From assembly GCF_023703375.1 (NCBI RefSeq), contig NZ_JAMQGO010000003.1, positions 124,001 to 188,000 of the forward strand: DNA of 64,000 nucleotides. Direction: 5' to 3'. The translations under genes and the position numbers were made by a program. A model generated the notes under the pieces. The model saw only the letters and a list, made by a program, of their open reading frames with translations. It was not told the DNA's origin and made no database searches. Below are positions 30,404 through 55,845 of the stretch, piece by piece; within the stretch, counting starts at the first letter, position 1, and the number at the start of each line of letters is the position of its first letter. This DNA is from Lutimaribacter degradans. Its GTDB lineage: Bacteria; Pseudomonadota; Alphaproteobacteria; Rhodobacterales; Rhodobacteraceae.

Positions 30404-31203
30404 GCTTTCAACCCGTCCTGCCGATGGCCGGGTTGGCCGGGTGGCGCTTTTTGCAGCGCACGATGGATACTCAAACCGCCACATTCAACTCGGGTGCGCA
30501 AATCACCCGCGACACCGATTATTTTCTTGAGAAGATCGGTAAGATCGACACTGCGGAACAACTGGTATCCGACAGGCGGCTATTGCGGGTCGCATTGGGC
30601 GCCCATGGGCTGCAAAGTGATATCGACAACCGCTTTTTCATCCGCAAAGTGCTGGAAGATGGTACGCTGAAAAGCGACGCGCTGTCGAACAGGCTGGCCG
30701 ATGATAGATACAAAAGCTTTTCCAAGGCATTTGGTTTCGGCGATTTCCCGGTACCAAACACCAAGTTGAGCGATTTCGGCGCGAAAACGGTGGCGCTTTA
30801 TCGCAAGCAGCAGTTCGAGCAGGCCGTCGGCGAACAGGATAATGCGATGCGGCTGGCGTTGAACGCCGATCGGCAGTTGCCAGAGATCGCAGGCGGTTCG
30901 AGCAGCGAGAACGCCCGGTGGTTTCGCATCATGGGCACCGCCCCACTGCGCGAGGTATTCGAGGTTGCGCTGGGTCTGCCCAAAAGTTTTGGCCAGATCG
31001 ACATTGATCAGCAACTGCAGGTTTTCCAGGAAAAGGCGCGCGGCCAGCTTGGCCTGGAAAGCGTCGGAGACTTGGCAAGGCCGGAGGTGCGCGAACAGCT
31101 GGTTCAACGATACTTGTTGCGGACACAAGTTGCCGAGGCTGTCGTGACCGGCCCGGCCTCGGTCGCGCTAAGCCTGCTGCAAAACATCCCACGCCGGAAT
31201 TAA
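30400..31203 (+). CDS. DUF1217-type flagellar-cluster protein
   Basis: Protein of 267 residues starting MSFQPVLPMAGLAGWRFL. It matches the DUF1217 family, which I recall in alphaproteobacterial flagellar clusters with repeats of the type DNRFFIRKVLEDGT and FGFGDF. No signal peptide or transmembrane segment is visible. The start overlaps the flbT stop (ATGA). It is convergent with fliI, stops overlapping. Its molecular role is not known. It may be an exported or chaperone-type component, because such proteins accompany flagellin regulators. Confidence 0.7.
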   Translation: MSFQPVLPMAGLAGWRFLQRTMDTQTATFNSGAQITRDTDYFLEKIGKIDTAEQLVSDRRLLRVALGAHGLQSDIDNRFFIRKVLEDGTLKSDALSNRLADDRYKSFSKAFGFGDFPVPNTKLSDFGAKTVALYRKQQFEQAVGEQDNAMRLALNADRQLPEIAGGSSSENARWFRIMGTAPLREVFEVALGLPKSFGQIDIDQQLQVFQEKARGQLGLESVGDLARPEVREQLVQRYLLRTQVAEAVVTGPASVALSLLQNIPRRN

Positions 31204-36713: not shown

Positions 36714-37220
36714 ATGTTTCGCACGCTTTTACCGATCTTGCTTGCCGCCATGGGCACCGGCGGTGGCGTCGTGGCAGGTGCGATGGTGCGACCTGCCCCC
36801 GAAAAGGCCGCAACCTTGTCGGAATGCGCGCCTTCTCCGCCCTCGGATACCAAGCGTGCCGGCATCGCCGTGAAAGACACGCGCGCTCAGCCAGCAATTC
36901 CGGAATACATCAAGTTGAGCAACCAATTCGTTGTGCCTGTCGTAGAACAGGATCGCGTGGCCGCGATGGTCGTGCTGTCACTCAGCATCGAGGCCGCACC
37001 CGGAGCGCGCGAAACGATTTACACCAGAGAGCCCAAACTCCGTGACGTTTTCTTGCAGGTACTGTTCGATCACGCGAATATTGGTGGGTTTCGTGGTGCT
37101 TTCACCTCGGCTGCCAACATGGGATCATTACGTGATGCCTTACTGGATGCCGCACAAGGCGTGATCGGGCATGATGTGTCGGATATACTGATTACCGACA
37201 TCGGGCGACAGGATGTCTGA
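36714..37220 (+). CDS. FliL-family flagellar basal-body-associated protein (second copy)
   Basis: Protein of 168 residues with one N-terminal hydrophobic segment (LLPILLAAMGTGGGVVAGAM) and a periplasmic domain: FVVPVVEQDRVAAMVVLSLSI, then REPKLRDVFLQVLFDHANIG and the terminal VSDILITDIGRQDV. The pattern is that of FliL, a stator-associated ring protein. The other FliL-type gene is at 45947. Being last in the basal-body operon, it may act with the LP ring or the stator. The family call is moderately secure and its division of labour with the other copy is unknown. Confidence 0.72.
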   Translation: MFRTLLPILLAAMGTGGGVVAGAMVRPAPEKAATLSECAPSPPSDTKRAGIAVKDTRAQPAIPEYIKLSNQFVVPVVEQDRVAAMVVLSLSIEAAPGARETIYTREPKLRDVFLQVLFDHANIGGFRGAFTSAANMGSLRDALLDAAQGVIGHDVSDILITDIGRQDV

Positions 37221-41552: not shown

Positions 41553-41743
41553 TACCCACGCTCCGACATTTGGGGCGCCACGCCAAACAGCCGGCTTGCA
41601 AGTGTCACCTGTCCAGCAACGTAAAATTCACCTGCGCCAAGCGGACTTTCCAAGATATCGGGCAAACGGTGCGCCACCGTGACAGCCTTTGGATAAGGCG
41701 CGCCCGTTCGCCAAGCCAAGTCGGGGATTTCCCGCTTTTTCAT
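41552..41743 (-). CDS. Small protein of unknown function coupled to flhA
   Basis: Gene of 63 codons starting MKKREIPDLAWRTGAPYPKA. A strong ribosome-binding site (CGGAGGG, 8 bases before ATG) precedes it and its TAA overlaps the flhA ATG as TAATG, which favours a real, translated gene. No signal peptide or membrane segment is visible; it has PhageTail- or FlhA-like similarity to nothing I recognise. It lies between the 748-residue gene and flhA in the motA operon. Either the peptide has a function in export-gate assembly or its translation mainly sets flhA expression. Confidence 0.6.
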   Translation of the reverse strand: MKKREIPDLAWRTGAPYPKAVTVAHRLPDILESPLGAGEFYVAGQVTLASRLFGVAPQMSERG

Positions 41744-41807
41744 TTTCCGGCCCTCCGCAGCATTCTGCTTGTGAGAACAGGGTTAGGCCCGGTGTCTTTC
41801 GATTCGG

Positions 41808-44054
41808 TTACGGCGAACCGGCTTGGTCAGAGTTGTTCGCGGAATCATCAAACGCGAAACTTGAAATTAGCTGGTCCAGTGTTTCCCGCACGCGCGCACT
41901 CTGGTCAAGCAAGTCTTGGTTTCTTGCCAGCACAGCCTCATTCGGCGTTGCCTCGTTCTCGGTCAGCTTCAACGCGGCAAATGCGGATAGTGCAGGATCA
42001 TCGGTTTGGGCAAGATCTGCCCACTCGCTTGCAAGGAAAGCCGAACGCCTCCCATCGCCCTCGGATTCGAGGTCTGCATAAACCCGCGCGGCAATCGCAT
42101 GATCGCCGGCCATGCTGCGTGCACGCGCCCTTATCGCGTCGACATCGGGCCCCGAGAAACCAAGCAACTCTGCCTCGGCCTGCCGTGGGCGCGTCATTTT
42201 CAACGCCGCCTCTGCACGCAACAGGCGCCTTTCCCGCGCCTCGTCACCACCCGCCGGATTCATCAACAGCTTCATGGAGTCTTCCGGGAACCCGAGCAAA
42301 AGCACGCGTTCAGCAAGCCGATTCACTTCGTCTTCCGGAAGCTCTTTGGCCTGATCCAATCGCTGAAAAATCAGCTCCAGAAACAGGGCATCTGGTGCGT
42401 TTGTCCGAAGCAGAGCGTAAATCCGTGCAGGCCGCGCCGCAATATTTTCCGGATCAAGGGCATCCAGCTTGGAAAGGGCTAACGCGAATTGGCCAGCCCC
42501 AGCATGTGCCAGAGCATCGGCCCAGGCCAGGATGTCAGCGTTCTCACCACTGCGGTTTTCGAATGCAAATGCTGCAGCAAGTTCGGCGGTTTTCCCCGGA
42601 ATAGGCCGCCCCGCCGCGACCTCGGATTCTATGATTGCCGCCAACGCCATGGGCGATTGCTCAGTATTCTGCGCGACGGCCACCTTGCGAAGTTTCTGCG
42701 CCTTTTCCTGATCAGCCGCGCGTTTGGAAATGCCAATCTCGGCAAGTGCTTGATTCTGCGTTTTCCGGTCAGCTGCCAGGTCCATCCTGCGCAGGATCAG
42801 TTCGGACGCCTCTTCGTGGCCGTAGCCGGCCAACCGCATTGCCAAATCGGGCCCCAACCCGAGGCGGAGATGCCGAGGTAAGGCGGCGAAGTGCCGAACA
42901 ACGGCTTTATGATTAACATCGGTTGGTTGCCGCCCCTCCTCTGCCGAGAGAACCGCCCACAACGAGACAAGGCCCTCACAGCTTGCCTGCGCGGGCAGCG
43001 ACCCAGGATCAGCCACCGGGTCACCGTCGACGAGGTGTGACATGATTTCCAAGAGTGGCTCAGGCTTGTCCTGCAAGCGAAGAGACTGCCGCGCCTCGGC
43101 CCCGAAACCGTAATGGATATAGTGTTTTGCCAAACCCAACGCTGCGTCTTCATTGATTTGGTCAAGGTCACCAAACAGCTGCCCGCGCCAATGCGACAGA
43201 CCAGCGTGGAAACTGTCAGCACCCCAGTCTACCACCGAAAAATCATCATCCGGGATACAGTCGGCACCCCCCATGGTTTGATTTTCCGAACCTTTTGCGC
43301 CAAGGAAATCGGCATCCTGGCTGGACAATGCGACCAAAGGAATGTCCGTTTGCAACCGTGGTGACTTGGAGAAAGTCTTGCTGGAAGGCTGCGAGCTTGC
43401 CCGGGTCGATGCTGAACGAAGTGCGATGCCGGCGTTGGGAGCCAAAAGCCCTTGCGTAGCGGCGCGTCCAAGTTGTCGCAAAAGACGTTCTTCTGCTTTA
43501 CCCGCGAGTTCGATTGCCACCATTTTTTCGGCAAACATTCCTATGGCCCCGGTCGTGTTGGTGCCGCCCTCTGACGGAAAATCGGGCAAAGCCATTTGCA
43601 AGCCCATTCGGGGCACCTGGACCACCGCACTTCCGAAGCTGAGAGTTTTCGAGACGGGCCCTGTTGCATCAGCTTGTTGACCCGCATCAATTGGCATCGG
43701 GGCAATATCCAGGGCCAGCATCCGAGGGCCGGCCAGAAACGCCTTGGCCGAGCAATTGCACCCGATATCAATAATCAGTTGCCCGGGGACATTTCCTGCG
43801 CTGACCGAAGCAACCCGCGACCGGTCGATCCGTTGAAATACACTGGAAAGGTCGAAACTGGTGACACCCGAACCGATCTGCAGAATGACCCGTTTTTCTG
43901 CCTTCTGTATTTCCCATTCCGCCCCACGCGGCAGACCAACGACCAACCGTGTGAAATCACCATGTTCGCCGGAACGAACAATGGCCTGTTGGGCCGCAAC
44001 CGCGGTTGGAAAAAGCGAAAAGAAGAGCAGTATTGAGCAGAGTCTTCGTATCAT
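41808..44054 (-). CDS. Secreted AMIN-like/helical-repeat protein in the motA operon, function unknown
   Basis: Protein of 748 residues with a signal peptide (MIRRLCSILLFFSLFPTAVA, cleavage before AQQ). Residues about 25-120 have the beta-rich pattern of AMIN-type domains (DFTRLVVGLPRGAEWEI, RVILQIGSGVTSFDLSSVF, GQLIIDIGCNC). Residues about 300-720 are helical and look like TPR/Sel1-type repeats (AALGLAKHYIHYGFGAEARQ, HAIAARVYADLESEGDG). It overlaps motA by ATGA. A periplasmic role in the stator or wall anchoring is inferred from the AMIN-like part, export signal and position. It may be a functional counterpart of rhizobial MotC, but I cannot show homology. Confidence 0.75.
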   Translation of the reverse strand: MIRRLCSILLFFSLFPTAVAAQQAIVRSGEHGDFTRLVVGLPRGAEWEIQKAEKRVILQIGSGVTSFDLSSVFQRIDRSRVASVSAGNVPGQLIIDIGCNCSAKAFLAGPRMLALDIAPMPIDAGQQADATGPVSKTLSFGSAVVQVPRMGLQMALPDFPSEGGTNTTGAIGMFAEKMVAIELAGKAEERLLRQLGRAATQGLLAPNAGIALRSASTRASSQPSSKTFSKSPRLQTDIPLVALSSQDADFLGAKGSENQTMGGADCIPDDDFSVVDWGADSFHAGLSHWRGQLFGDLDQINEDAALGLAKHYIHYGFGAEARQSLRLQDKPEPLLEIMSHLVDGDPVADPGSLPAQASCEGLVSLWAVLSAEEGRQPTDVNHKAVVRHFAALPRHLRLGLGPDLAMRLAGYGHEEASELILRRMDLAADRKTQNQALAEIGISKRAADQEKAQKLRKVAVAQNTEQSPMALAAIIESEVAAGRPIPGKTAELAAAFAFENRSGENADILAWADALAHAGAGQFALALSKLDALDPENIAARPARIYALLRTNAPDALFLELIFQRLDQAKELPEDEVNRLAERVLLLGFPEDSMKLLMNPAGGDEARERRLLRAEAALKMTRPRQAEAELLGFSGPDVDAIRARARSMAGDHAIAARVYADLESEGDGRRSAFLASEWADLAQTDDPALSAFAALKLTENEATPNEAVLARNQDLLDQSARVRETLDQLISSFAFDDSANNSDQAGSP

Positions 44055-44920
44055 GCTGCATCCTGTTTGAGCGTCTTCAATGCATCTTCAAGGGCATCGA
44101 AATCCGGCCTGTAATGCGATGGGGTATTCTGCCGTCCAACCTCGATGCAGATATTGGCAGGATGGTTGTGCAGGTTTGCGACCAGAACCTCACGGATCAG
44201 CTGATAGAAATGGGCATCTTCCTCTACCACGGCCTTCACTTTGCCGGCGAAGGGGGCAACCAGACCATAGGCCAGGAAAACGCCCAGGAATGTCCCGACA
44301 AGTGCCCCGCCAATCATTTTGCCCAGTACCTCGGGTGGCTGGTCAATCGATGCCATCGTCTTGATAACCCCCAAAACCGCAGCCACGATTCCCAAAGCAG
44401 GCAGCCCATCGGCAACGGTCTGCAAGGCATGGCTGCCATGCAGGGCATGATGCAGGTTTGCATCAATCCGCTTTTCAAGAACTTCTTCGACCTGGTGAGG
44501 GTCATCATAATTCATCGAGGCCGAGCGCATCGTGTCGCAAATCAGGTTGATCGCTTCCTTGTCGGATTGAATGCGAGGGTACTTCGAAAAAATAGTGGAC
44601 TCATCCGGTGCCTCGATATGTTCCTCGATTGCAACCGGGCTGGATTTCGCAAGACGAACCAATTCGAACAACAAGCAAAGCAGATCGCGGTAATCATCCG
44701 GCTTCCACTTGGCCCCCCTGAAAACCTTTCCAATATCCTTGGCGGTATGCTTGACCGCCCCCATGTCATTGCTGATCAGGAAAGCCCCGACCGCGGCCCC
44801 GCCAATTATCATCAGTTCGAAAGGCAGCGCCTTGAGAATGATCCCCAATTTACCGCCTGCCGCCAGATAACCGCCAAAAACCATGGCGAAAATCATGATG
44901 ATGCCAAAAATGCCCAGCAT
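44051..44920 (-). CDS. motA: Flagellar motor stator protein MotA
   Basis: Protein of 289 residues with four transmembrane helices: MLGIFGIIMIFAMVFGGYLA, LPFELMIIGGAAVGAFLISN, and the pair VADGLPALGIVAAVLGVIKT and GALVGTFLGVFLAYGLVAPF, which include the two conserved prolines of the proton channel. The cytoplasmic loop holds the charged residues that contact the rotor. It is the first gene after a 71-base gap in the minus-strand motor unit and overlaps the 748-residue gene. Its partner motB is about 10 kb away (54880). Confidence 0.97.
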   Translation of the reverse strand: MLGIFGIIMIFAMVFGGYLAAGGKLGIILKALPFELMIIGGAAVGAFLISNDMGAVKHTAKDIGKVFRGAKWKPDDYRDLLCLLFELVRLAKSSPVAIEEHIEAPDESTIFSKYPRIQSDKEAINLICDTMRSASMNYDDPHQVEEVLEKRIDANLHHALHGSHALQTVADGLPALGIVAAVLGVIKTMASIDQPPEVLGKMIGGALVGTFLGVFLAYGLVAPFAGKVKAVVEEDAHFYQLIREVLVANLHNHPANICIEVGRQNTPSHYRPDFDALEDALKTLKQDAA

Positions 44921-44991: not shown

Positions 44992-45582
44992 TTATTCCGT
45001 CGGGACGTCAGCATTTCGGCCAGCTAGGATGACACTTACGGAATAGGCCATCTGCGGGGTCAGGCCGGCCATCACCGCGGCAGCCGCGGCAGGTTGCATG
45101 CGCCCGAGAAAGCCCGCGGCAAAACCAGGGTCCATGGTCTCGAAAAGTGCCGCTGCTTCCTTGGGCTTCATCGCCTCGTAGACGGCCACCAAACGGTCAA
45201 TATCATCTTCTGCGGCGGTATCGGCCAAGGCGATTGTCGCGCGCAGGGATTCTTCTGCAGCAAGAAGCTCTTGCAGTTTTCGCTGAATCTCCTCTTCTGC
45301 AACGGCAAGCGCGTGCAGGCGATCTTGAGCCTGTGCCTCACGCTTATCGAGCCGAGCTTCCCGCGCATTCAGTGCATCCAGAAACGGCGCGATATCCTTT
45401 GGCGGTTCACAACTCTGTGCAGTATTCGCATCTCCGGTTTCCGCTGGCACTGGGGCGTCATCGCTTACGGCAAGTGCCGCATCAGCCCCCAAGCCAACCC
45501 GTAACAGCGCAGATCCGATCAAAAGAAATGCGATGACGGCCAGTGTCCCGCGGCCACTGCGCCGTTTGCGCCGCTCGCTCAT
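44992..45582 (-). CDS. motE: MotE-like flagellar protein
   Basis: Protein of 196 residues: an N-terminal hydrophobic segment (GTLAVIAFLLIGSALLRVGL), a coiled coil (LNAREARLDKREAQAQDRL), and a C-terminal MgtE-N-like region (YEAMKPKEAAALFETMDPGF, LTPQMAYSVSVILAGR). This is the architecture of MotE, which in Sinorhizobium is a periplasmic chaperone for the stator protein MotC. Start overlaps the stop of the 118-residue gene (ATGA). A general MgtE-N-like flagellar protein is the alternative. Confidence 0.7.
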   Translation of the reverse strand: MSERRKRRSGRGTLAVIAFLLIGSALLRVGLGADAALAVSDDAPVPAETGDANTAQSCEPPKDIAPFLDALNAREARLDKREAQAQDRLHALAVAEEEIQRKLQELLAAEESLRATIALADTAAEDDIDRLVAVYEAMKPKEAAALFETMDPGFAAGFLGRMQPAAAAAVMAGLTPQMAYSVSVILAGRNADVPTE

Positions 45583-45935
45583 GGCCGCGCCTCCTCATCC
45601 GCACGGCCATGGCGCACGAACATGGGTTCTTTTACATCTTCCTGAGCGGGCTGGGGAAGGTCGTGCATCGAGGCGACAAGCAATTCCAGCCGTTTTGCAA
45701 CATCTTCGGCCCGATCAGTGAGCCCACTAAGGGAGTCGGCAGACTCCGTCGTGGTTTTCTGCGCCGTGGCCAACATCTTGGTCAGGTCGTCAACTTGCGC
45801 CGATAGCACGGCAACAGCGCCTCCGACTCCGTTTTCAAGGTCGTTGAAGCGGCTCAATCGGCGCGCCAGGATGAAGCAATACAAACCGGCGCCGAGCGCA
45901 CCGGCCACCAGAAGAATATCGGCGATCAGTTCCAT
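45579..45935 (-). CDS. Membrane-anchored coiled-coil protein in the fliL operon (DUF6468-like)
   Basis: Protein of 118 residues: an N-terminal transmembrane helix (ELIADILLVAGALGAGLYCF), followed by a basic turn ILARRLSRFNDLENGVGGAV and a coiled coil (LSAQVDDLTKMLATAQKTTT). It resembles the small DUF6468 proteins that I recall beside fliL/fliM in alphaproteobacteria. It lies between fliL (11-base gap) and the MotE-like gene (ATGA overlap). Its function is not known. The position suggests a motor- or switch-associated role. Notably, fliM, often found here, is missing. Confidence 0.62.
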   Translation of the reverse strand: MELIADILLVAGALGAGLYCFILARRLSRFNDLENGVGGAVAVLSAQVDDLTKMLATAQKTTTESADSLSGLTDRAEDVAKRLELLVASMHDLPQPAQEDVKEPMFVRHGRADEEARP

Positions 45936-45946
45936 AAACTTCCCTT

Positions 45947-46474
45947 TCAGTTCAGGACGAATTCCATGATCAAGAGGTTGCGAACAGCATCATTTCCGGC
46001 AACGACCTGAACCCTGCGCAGCATTTGTGCCCGCAGCCGGGAAAGGACCGTCGGGTCGTGCAAGTCGCGGGTTTCAACAGCACGCAGATAACTGTTCAGC
46101 ACATCTATGATGCGTGGTGTCAGCGCCCGAATGTCGGACTCGTAGTCGGACAGGACTTCCAATTGCGCGCTGAATCGCAAGTGGCGGCTCCCGGTGCCGG
46201 GGGCGAGCGAGATGGTGATTGGATCGAGCGGTACGAAAACGCTGTCACCAAGGGGCAACGCTTCGATCTCTAACGCAGAGTCTTGCGTGGCATGATTCCC
46301 ATCCTCCTGCGCGGCCAGGGCGTCTTTGGTATCGCCCAGCGCAGGCTTGAGAATCAAGCCGGAGTAGACCGCGTAAAATCCACCGCCTCCACCGACAAGC
46401 GCCAGCACGACCCCAAGGATCAGCATGAACTTTGAGGTTTTCTTGGGCTCTTCATCAACAGTGGCTTCGGCCAT
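45947..46474 (-). CDS. fliL: Flagellar basal body-associated protein FliL
   Basis: Protein of 175 residues with a short cytoplasmic tail, one transmembrane helix (FMLILGVVLALVGGGGGFYA) and a periplasmic FliL domain: FVPLDPITISLAPGTGSRHL, RFSAQLEVLSDYESDI, TPRIIDVLNSYLRAVETRDL, and NLLIMEFVLN at the end. FliL rings surround stators and modulate torque. First gene of the minus-strand motor unit, divergent from fliF across a 128-base gap with a CtrA-like box. Confidence 0.95.
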   Translation of the reverse strand: MAEATVDEEPKKTSKFMLILGVVLALVGGGGGFYAVYSGLILKPALGDTKDALAAQEDGNHATQDSALEIEALPLGDSVFVPLDPITISLAPGTGSRHLRFSAQLEVLSDYESDIRALTPRIIDVLNSYLRAVETRDLHDPTVLSRLRAQMLRRVQVVAGNDAVRNLLIMEFVLN

Positions 46475-46525: not shown

Positions 46526-46540
46526 CTAACCGATTGTTAA
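46526..46540. promoter_or_regulatory. CtrA-like box in the fliL/fliF divergent promoter
   Basis: CTAA-N7-TTAA on the plus strand (TTAA-N7-TTAG on the minus strand), one mismatch from the CtrA consensus TTAA-N7-TTAA, with an exact 7-base spacer. It lies 52 bases before the fliL ATG and 63 before the fliF GTG, so it could serve both. The minus-strand reading begins GCTTAAC, the same heptamer as in the flgE box. Confidence 0.55.
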
Positions 46541-54879: not shown

Positions 54880-55725
54880 TCAACGCGACGTGCGCAGCAA
54901 TACAAGCTCCAATCGATTGTTTCGAATCGACATCGGGTTTTGTGTTGCCGGTTCGCGATCGGCATGGCCGGTAACGCGGCGAATTCGGTCAACCGGAAAT
55001 TCCTGCCCTTCGATCAAACCCCGGGTGACATTCGCGCGGTCGACCGACAAGGGCCAGACCGGGTTGTCGACAAGCACCAGCGGGCGTGCGGCAACGTGGC
55101 CTTCGATTGCCAATGGGTTTTGGACCAGGGCAAATACCCTCGACAACATGGCTGACAACTCTTGCAGCAAGGCCGTGGGCTGGGCCGTCGCCCCCTGAAA
55201 CAAGGGGGCGCCTTCCAGGTCAAAAACTTCGACAACCAGGCCTTCGTCGGTGACGCGTGTCAAGATATGCTTCAAGTGGTCGTCGTGAACCATGCTTTCG
55301 CCGCCCCGCCCCATCAGCGCTGCCTCGACAACCTTGAAAGCTTCTTCTTCGGCCCCAGTCTCCCGATCCGTTTCAGACACGCCGCTTTCGCCGCGAGCCT
55401 TATTTTCCTCGGTCGGGCGCAGATTTGTCGCCCCCGTTCCATTTCTTGGCAAAACTTCTTCGGAAAACACGCTGTTGCCGCCGAATATGCCTTCGCCGCC
55501 ACCAGAAACACGCGCCATCGGCACGGTCGGCGTAAAGTAATCCGCGATCCCTTTACGTTGCTTTTCCGTTGTTGCGTTCAGCAGCCACATCAAAAGGAAA
55601 AATGCCATCATGGCGGTCACGAAATCGGCATAGGCAACTTTCCACGCCCCGCCGTGGTGCCCATCACCGCGTATGACCTTTTTCCGCTTGATGATGACTG
55701 GCACCGCATTGCCTTGCGCGCCCAT
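54880..55725 (-). CDS. motB: Flagellar motor stator protein MotB
   Basis: Protein of 281 residues: a cytoplasmic tail (VIIKRKKVIRGDGHHGGAWK), one transmembrane helix with the proton-carrying aspartate in YADFVTAMMAFFLLMWLLN, a plug region and an OmpA-like peptidoglycan-binding C-terminus (FPVDRIRRVTGHADREPATQ, NRLELVLL). The start at 55725 was chosen because AAAGG precedes it; GTG codons just before are alternatives. It is not next to motA but upstream of flgE in the same direction. Confidence 0.95.
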   Translation of the reverse strand: MGAQGNAVPVIIKRKKVIRGDGHHGGAWKVAYADFVTAMMAFFLLMWLLNATTEKQRKGIADYFTPTVPMARVSGGGEGIFGGNSVFSEEVLPRNGTGATNLRPTEENKARGESGVSETDRETGAEEEAFKVVEAALMGRGGESMVHDDHLKHILTRVTDEGLVVEVFDLEGAPLFQGATAQPTALLQELSAMLSRVFALVQNPLAIEGHVAARPLVLVDNPVWPLSVDRANVTRGLIEGQEFPVDRIRRVTGHADREPATQNPMSIRNNRLELVLLRTSR

Positions 55726-55845
55726 TGCCACCACCTTTTTTACTCACCCGATACAAGGGTTAGCGCAATACTTGTTGCCAGTGCGTTAATCGGACTGGTG
55801 AGGATCAAGCCAGGAACGGGCAATTCTAAGCAAAACAATGCAAAA

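Follow-up and report, generated by a model that had tools for sequence, protein, structure and literature searches.

What does a large exported protein do when its gene follows directly on the stator gene motA? The question is raised by a stretch of 64,000 nucleotides from Lutimaribacter degradans (hereafter the window), in which an initial annotation had read the open reading frame at 41808-44054 (-) as a candidate undescribed motor component, a periplasmic partner of the stator that works with a MotE-like protein and has an architecture unlike that of MotC. The answer can be given with considerable confidence: the gene is very probably motK, and its product an exported scaffold or spoke on the wall side that brings stators to the motor, keeps them open, or does both. 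The functional guess is correct, since it agrees for this family with what has been reported for MotK of Cereibacter sphaeroides, but the word undescribed does not stand. The family is already known, having been described as MotK in 2024 (PMC10954123) and as CP4 in 2025 (PMC12363192), with FssB of Caulobacter as a distant relative (PMC7885107), and it is therefore no new motor part.

The motK gene and its operon

The reading frame starts with ATG and encodes 748 amino acids on the minus strand. It is a genuine gene: among 200 base-shuffles of its DNA the longest stop-free run is 256 codons, against 748 in the real sequence, and 146 of the 197 genomes from its order contain a homologue that keeps the frame, in most cases at 25-34% identity. 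The window protein has no match in Pfam, NCBIfam or PADLOC, and a PDB sequence search with the MotK profile returned nothing meaningful. Clear homology to an unrelated family, which would have spoken against the proposed role, was not found.

The gene closes a run of five on the minus strand in the order fliL-pflI-motE-motA-motK, which is the order published for the fla2 cluster of C. sphaeroides (PMC10954123). The first gene, fliL (45947-46474, -), is recognised by PF03748, and pflI (45579-45935, -), the equivalent of CP2, is a DUF6468-like gene assigned from its position and from a match to PF20072 that lies under the cut-off (E 7e-4). motE (44992-45582, -), the CP3 of Phaeobacter inhibens, would encode a putative E-ring protein and partner of MotK; this MotE-like gene had been noticed in the initial annotation, and it is borne out by a match to MgtE_N at 26.0 bits (cut-off 25.9), by a FlbB collar match at 30.3 bits, under its own cut-off, and by its co-occurrence with MotK. 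motA (44051-44920, -) encodes the stator and scores 358 bits against TIGR03818 (MotA1). It ends at 44051 and motK, the CP4 of P. inhibens, starts at 44054, so that stop and start overlap in the ATGA junction described beforehand (44051-44054, -). Such an overlap suggests that translation of motA and motK may be coupled; MotK would then be made in proportion to the stator. Across Rhodobacterales, 78 loci have both genes, and in 76 of them the start of motK overlaps the stop codon of motA. Where there was enough upstream sequence, all five genes stand in this order in 65 of 75 relatives; in the remaining 10, motA and motK are still joined, and fliL-pflI-motE were not found adjoining.

The gene for the other stator protein, motB (54880-55734, -), the product of which is the probable partner of MotK, is separate from this operon. 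It is identified by PF13677 (MotB_plug, E 1.6e-19) and lies about 11 kb from motK, which follows motA instead. No OmpA model matches the window MotB at E 0.01, which suggests that its wall-binding domain has diverged; a motor with such a domain could depend more on another wall anchor, for instance MotK.

Some further features of the region can be recorded here. The gap between motK and flhA measures 255 bp (41553-41807) and holds no lytic transglycosylase gene; in about half of the relatives a space of 800-1000 bp lies 3' of motK, where P. inhibens has sltF. A scan for CtrA sites gave 4 matches against 4.4 expected, which is the chance level, and one of them precedes fliL at 46526. A second gene of the FliL family follows flgH (36714-37220, +; 24.1 bits, just below the Pfam cut-off), and two fliL genes are also listed for P. 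inhibens. After fliC-flaF-flbT, there is a gene for a DUF1217 protein (30460-31203, +; PF06748, 139 bits); in relatives of P. inhibens, CP1 has been reported at this position. A DUF1217 gene adjoins flgF/motA on a Phyllobacterium plasmid as well (locus L181, 13058-13837), and CP1, like CP4 (see below), is thus probably not restricted to Rhodobacterales.

Domain architecture of MotK

The signal peptide, the AMIN-like N-terminal domain and the long helical-repeat region of the initial annotation are all supported by prediction. From hydropathy, a Sec signal peptide is predicted at the N-terminus, MIRRLCSILLFFSLFPTAVAAQQ (about residues 1-21, 43992-44054 (-), with a putative cleavage site). Residues 5-22 are the sole long hydrophobic segment, and no further membrane-like segment exceeds the hydropathy cut-off. 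The AF2 model of the full-length protein, built with 80 relatives, has a mean pLDDT of 85.8. Residues 22-119 (43698-43991, -) form in it a beta domain of 9 strands, which Foldseek matches to the AMIN domain of AmiC (4bin; 114 columns, 3.7 A) and also to that of PilQ (4aqz), and in which H31, R36, C99, C101 and D116 are invariant in the alignment of the 80 relatives. The Pfam AMIN-like models (PF11741 / PF24837) do not match the window MotK and match weakly in 6 of 26 relatives; AMIN models of Pfam are found in 26 of 30 larger MotK homologues, with a best E-value of 7e-7.

The resemblance to AmiC would also suit a wall-remodelling accessory, the AMIN domain of which lets the rod or rings through the peptidoglycan, as would the wider space 3' of motK at the sltF position of P. 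inhibens. Such a role is extremely improbable, given that neither Pfam nor the AF2 model reveals a hydrolase domain in MotK, that mutants of its relatives have not lost the production or secretion of hook and filament, and that the motK-flhA gap of the window is just 255 bp and holds no slt gene. In a stator scaffold, which is the preferred reading, the AMIN domain would rest on or against the cell wall.

Behind this domain, a linker of low confidence (residues 126-170, 43545-43679, -; pLDDT <50), probably disordered, leads to a lone long helix (residues 171-200, 43455-43544, -), near which A198 and G202 are conserved, and to a second low-confidence linker (residues 207-243, 43326-43436, -; pLDDT <50). 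Residues 245-733 (41856-43322, -) consist of helix pairs throughout and, folded alone, reach a mean pLDDT of 92.5 and a pTM of 0.80. This region is predicted to be a TPR-like solenoid; Pfam TPR_19 is found in 11 of 26 relatives, and the alignment shows invariant positions at C266, W277, GFGxEA 316-321, C359 and W366. The motK-slot proteins of loci L195 (6208-8352, -) and L153 (8789-10408, -) match the helical profile of MotK and are devoid of the AMIN domain. For genome G110, the profile match of the motK-slot protein begins no earlier than position 112 (E 8e-12), which leaves no AMIN domain, and the L153 protein, from genome G252, is similar. That two genomes have an AMIN-less protein in this slot indicates that the AMIN domain is dispensable in some lineages.

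Distribution across the Alphaproteobacteria

Within the order, MotK and a close MotE are almost inseparable: among 197 genomes, 145 have both, 1 has MotK only, 2 have MotE only (G110 is one of them) and 49 have neither. Beyond it, the MotK profile finds AMIN-TPR proteins of about 980-1280 aa across Alphaproteobacteria, some of them with two or more AMIN-like stretches; in almost every one of the first 20 loci, their genes cluster with fliL, fliM-like, DUF6468 and motE-like genes. Profile-profile comparison of MotK with 30 of these large homologues gives an E-value of 5e-34 over 411 columns, and each half matches separately (N-terminal E 6e-19, C-terminal E 6e-24). Column-shuffled or reversed profiles reach a probability of 0.1-0.3%, against 99.9% for the real match. 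Across the class, the profile match and FlhA tend to go together (59 of 66 matches at E 1e-5; Fisher p 3e-10). These counts are approximate, because some matches are AMIN domains of other proteins, in frames of about 400 aa that are probably AmiC. It has been claimed that CP4 is exclusive to the fla1 cluster of Rhodobacterales (PMC12363192); judged by their sequences, the large homologues do not support this confinement.

The tie to stator genes is seen in these loci as well. A MotB-like gene, recognised by its MotB-type transmembrane motif, lies immediately upstream in 23 of 37 non-Rhodobacterales loci, mostly with its end no more than a few bases from the start of the MotK homologue and often overlapping it, and this number comes from a simple pattern that misses divergent MotB. 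Five of the directly upstream MotB-like genes were scanned; all five match MotB_plug and four also match OmpA. In three loci from other orders (L144 7810-8499, +; L145 7783-8463, +; L148 7022-7927, +), a second, weaker MotB-like membrane protein that seems to lack the stator aspartate is encoded ahead of the MotB-like gene and the MotK homologue, and in L144 cheZ comes before that.

A rival reading makes the window gene an orthologue of rhizobial motC. Like MotK, MotC is exported, has helical repeats and acts together with MotE and MotB; a 2026 review makes the case that the two are divergent homologues (PMC13023049), and the AMIN-less proteins of the motK slot (L195, L153) show a MotC-like layout. 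Orthology is nevertheless very improbable: hhalign assigns a probability of 0.3% to the match of MotK with MotC and again 0.3% to that of its helical part, and the large MotK homologues reach 4-5%; MotC of Sinorhizobium meliloti scores 708 bits to NF009442, whereas the window MotK matches no NCBIfam model; and rhizobial motC sits after motB, whereas the window gene follows motA. Homology of MotK to MotC was rejected, as profile comparison gives no detectable sequence homology. A Phyllobacterium MotC, used as the query against 115 genomes of the class, found no match, a result that is uninformative. A broader proposal, tentative and rather doubtful as a whole, is that MotK, CP4 and FssB represent an ancient stator scaffold of the entire class, inherited with MotE and coupled to motA in Rhodobacterales and to a motB-like gene elsewhere, of which rhizobial MotC would be an AMIN-less descendant and the L195 and L153 proteins intermediates.

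Function of the family and proposed mechanism

The role assigned to the window gene draws on three described proteins. MotK of C. sphaeroides is periplasmic and binds MotE and MotB2; its localisation to the pole requires MotA2/MotB2, it stabilises MotE, and cells that have lost motK are flagellated yet paralysed (PMC10954123). CP4 of P. inhibens (PGA1_c35690) is essential for motility, and the mutant has been complemented (PMC12363192). In Caulobacter crescentus, FssB (CC_2058) is required for stator activity, and its loss gives paralysed flagella, 'analogous to a motB mutant' (PMC7885107). According to a 2026 review (PMC13023049) and a 2025 preprint (PMC11870540), MotE is the E-ring, and MotK, MotC and CC_2058 are PflA-like partners.

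The study of P. inhibens (PMC12363192) makes no mention of MotK, MotE or MotC, and the equivalence of CP3 with MotE and of CP4 with MotK has therefore, it seems, gone unstated. A point against the motK reading is that the motE phenotypes differ between the two organisms, no flagella being seen in the P. inhibens CP3 mutant (PMC12363192) and the C. sphaeroides motE mutant being flagellated and paralysed (PMC10954123). In the Results of the P. inhibens study it is the CP1 and CP4 mutants that still secrete hook and filament proteins, and in the Discussion the late-acting proteins are given as CP1 and CP3, which is probably a slip.

The same study provides the grounds for seeing in MotK a late assembly factor or chaperone for secreted flagellar parts and not a part of the motor: the CP4 mutant secretes a reduced set of flagellar proteins, and the authors discuss chaperone roles for some CP proteins (PMC12363192). 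This is very unlikely, because secretion of FliC, FlgK and FlgE persists in that mutant (PMC12363192), motK and fssB mutants bear filaments that do not turn (PMC10954123, PMC7885107), and the motK gene is tied to motA and motB genes, not to export genes.

The phenotypes and binding partners of the relatives, together with the PflA-like placement, give as the best-supported mechanism one in which MotK, as a scaffold or spoke, stands between the ring of MotE and the stator and recruits or activates MotAB. MotK would be exported by Sec to the periplasm, where its TPR solenoid would bind MotE, thought to form an E-ring around the MS-ring, and also the periplasmic part of MotB. Braced against the wall by its AMIN domain, it would serve as a scaffold or spoke on the wall side, bringing MotA/MotB stators to the motor and/or holding them in an open, torque-giving state; without it, the flagellum would be built but would not turn. 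Export, binding of MotE and MotB, stator-dependent localisation and paralysis have been shown in relatives, by analogy with which the window MotK probably has the same role. The assignment of a partner to each domain, the binding of the AMIN domain to peptidoglycan and the geometry of the spoke are presumptive features of this model.

Comparison with known systems

The window MotK resembles MotK of the C. sphaeroides Fla2 system (RSWS8N_12065) in its operon, signal peptide, AMIN-like N-terminus, linkers and TPR-like C-terminus. The published layout consists of a signal peptide, an AMIN-like domain at residues 23-119, disordered linkers and TPR-like helices (PMC10954123), and it is with this description that the window protein was compared; the lengths are 748 aa against 652 aa. 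Its authors already name homologues in Roseobacteraceae, such as Dshi_3259, and regard the members from this family as only distantly similar to C. sphaeroides MotK (PMC10954123). In the archetypal flagellar cluster of Rhodobacterales, CP4 likewise lies between motA and flhA; P. inhibens differs in having sltF between CP4 and flhA, a gene missing from that place in the window. FssB is likewise an exported TPR protein, encoded next to the motE-like CC_2059, and has been proposed as a MotK homologue with an AMIN-like fold. It differs in belonging to Caulobacteraceae and in having no reported BLAST similarity to MotK; the relation is taken from published descriptions. MotC of S. meliloti (NF009442) is unlike the window MotK, with about 430 aa, no AMIN domain and a gene 3' of motB.

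These comparisons connect bodies of work that in part do not cite one another, since CP3 and CP4 of Phaeobacter correspond to MotE and MotK, and fssB, known from surface sensing in Caulobacter, is a proposed relative. What is new here is the class-wide profile link, the coupling to motA or motB-like genes, the near-perfect co-occurrence of MotK with MotE and the AMIN-less forms. The value of the result lies in the annotation, together with the class-wide link and the stator-gene coupling, and as a discovery it is ordinary.

Outside the class, the comparison leads to PflA of Campylobacter and Helicobacter, which is exported and, as in MotK, combines an N-terminal beta-sandwich, a linker and a TPR solenoid. 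Among 350,542 PDB chains, the best Foldseek match of the full-length MotK model is a chain of the periplasmic scaffold of the Campylobacter jejuni motor (9hmf chain K, E 1e-5), probably PflA, judging by its length of 773 aa. The solenoid alone ranks this chain 32nd (E 0.01), among generic TPR/PPR proteins, and a specific match of the helical domain to PflA was rejected, being no better than many of these. No sequence homology to PflA was found in the PDB search with the MotK profile. As the solenoid by itself does not single out PflA, the likeness concerns the two-domain layout and is no proof of descent. PflA helps to scaffold MotB, an interaction with FlgY, the E-ring protein, has been reported for it, and its beta-sandwich binds PflB (PMC12222027). 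By its sequence link across the class and its constant coupling to stator genes, MotK is an alphaproteobacterial counterpart of the PflA stator scaffold, and the motors of Phaeobacter and Caulobacter are suggested for imaging its position.
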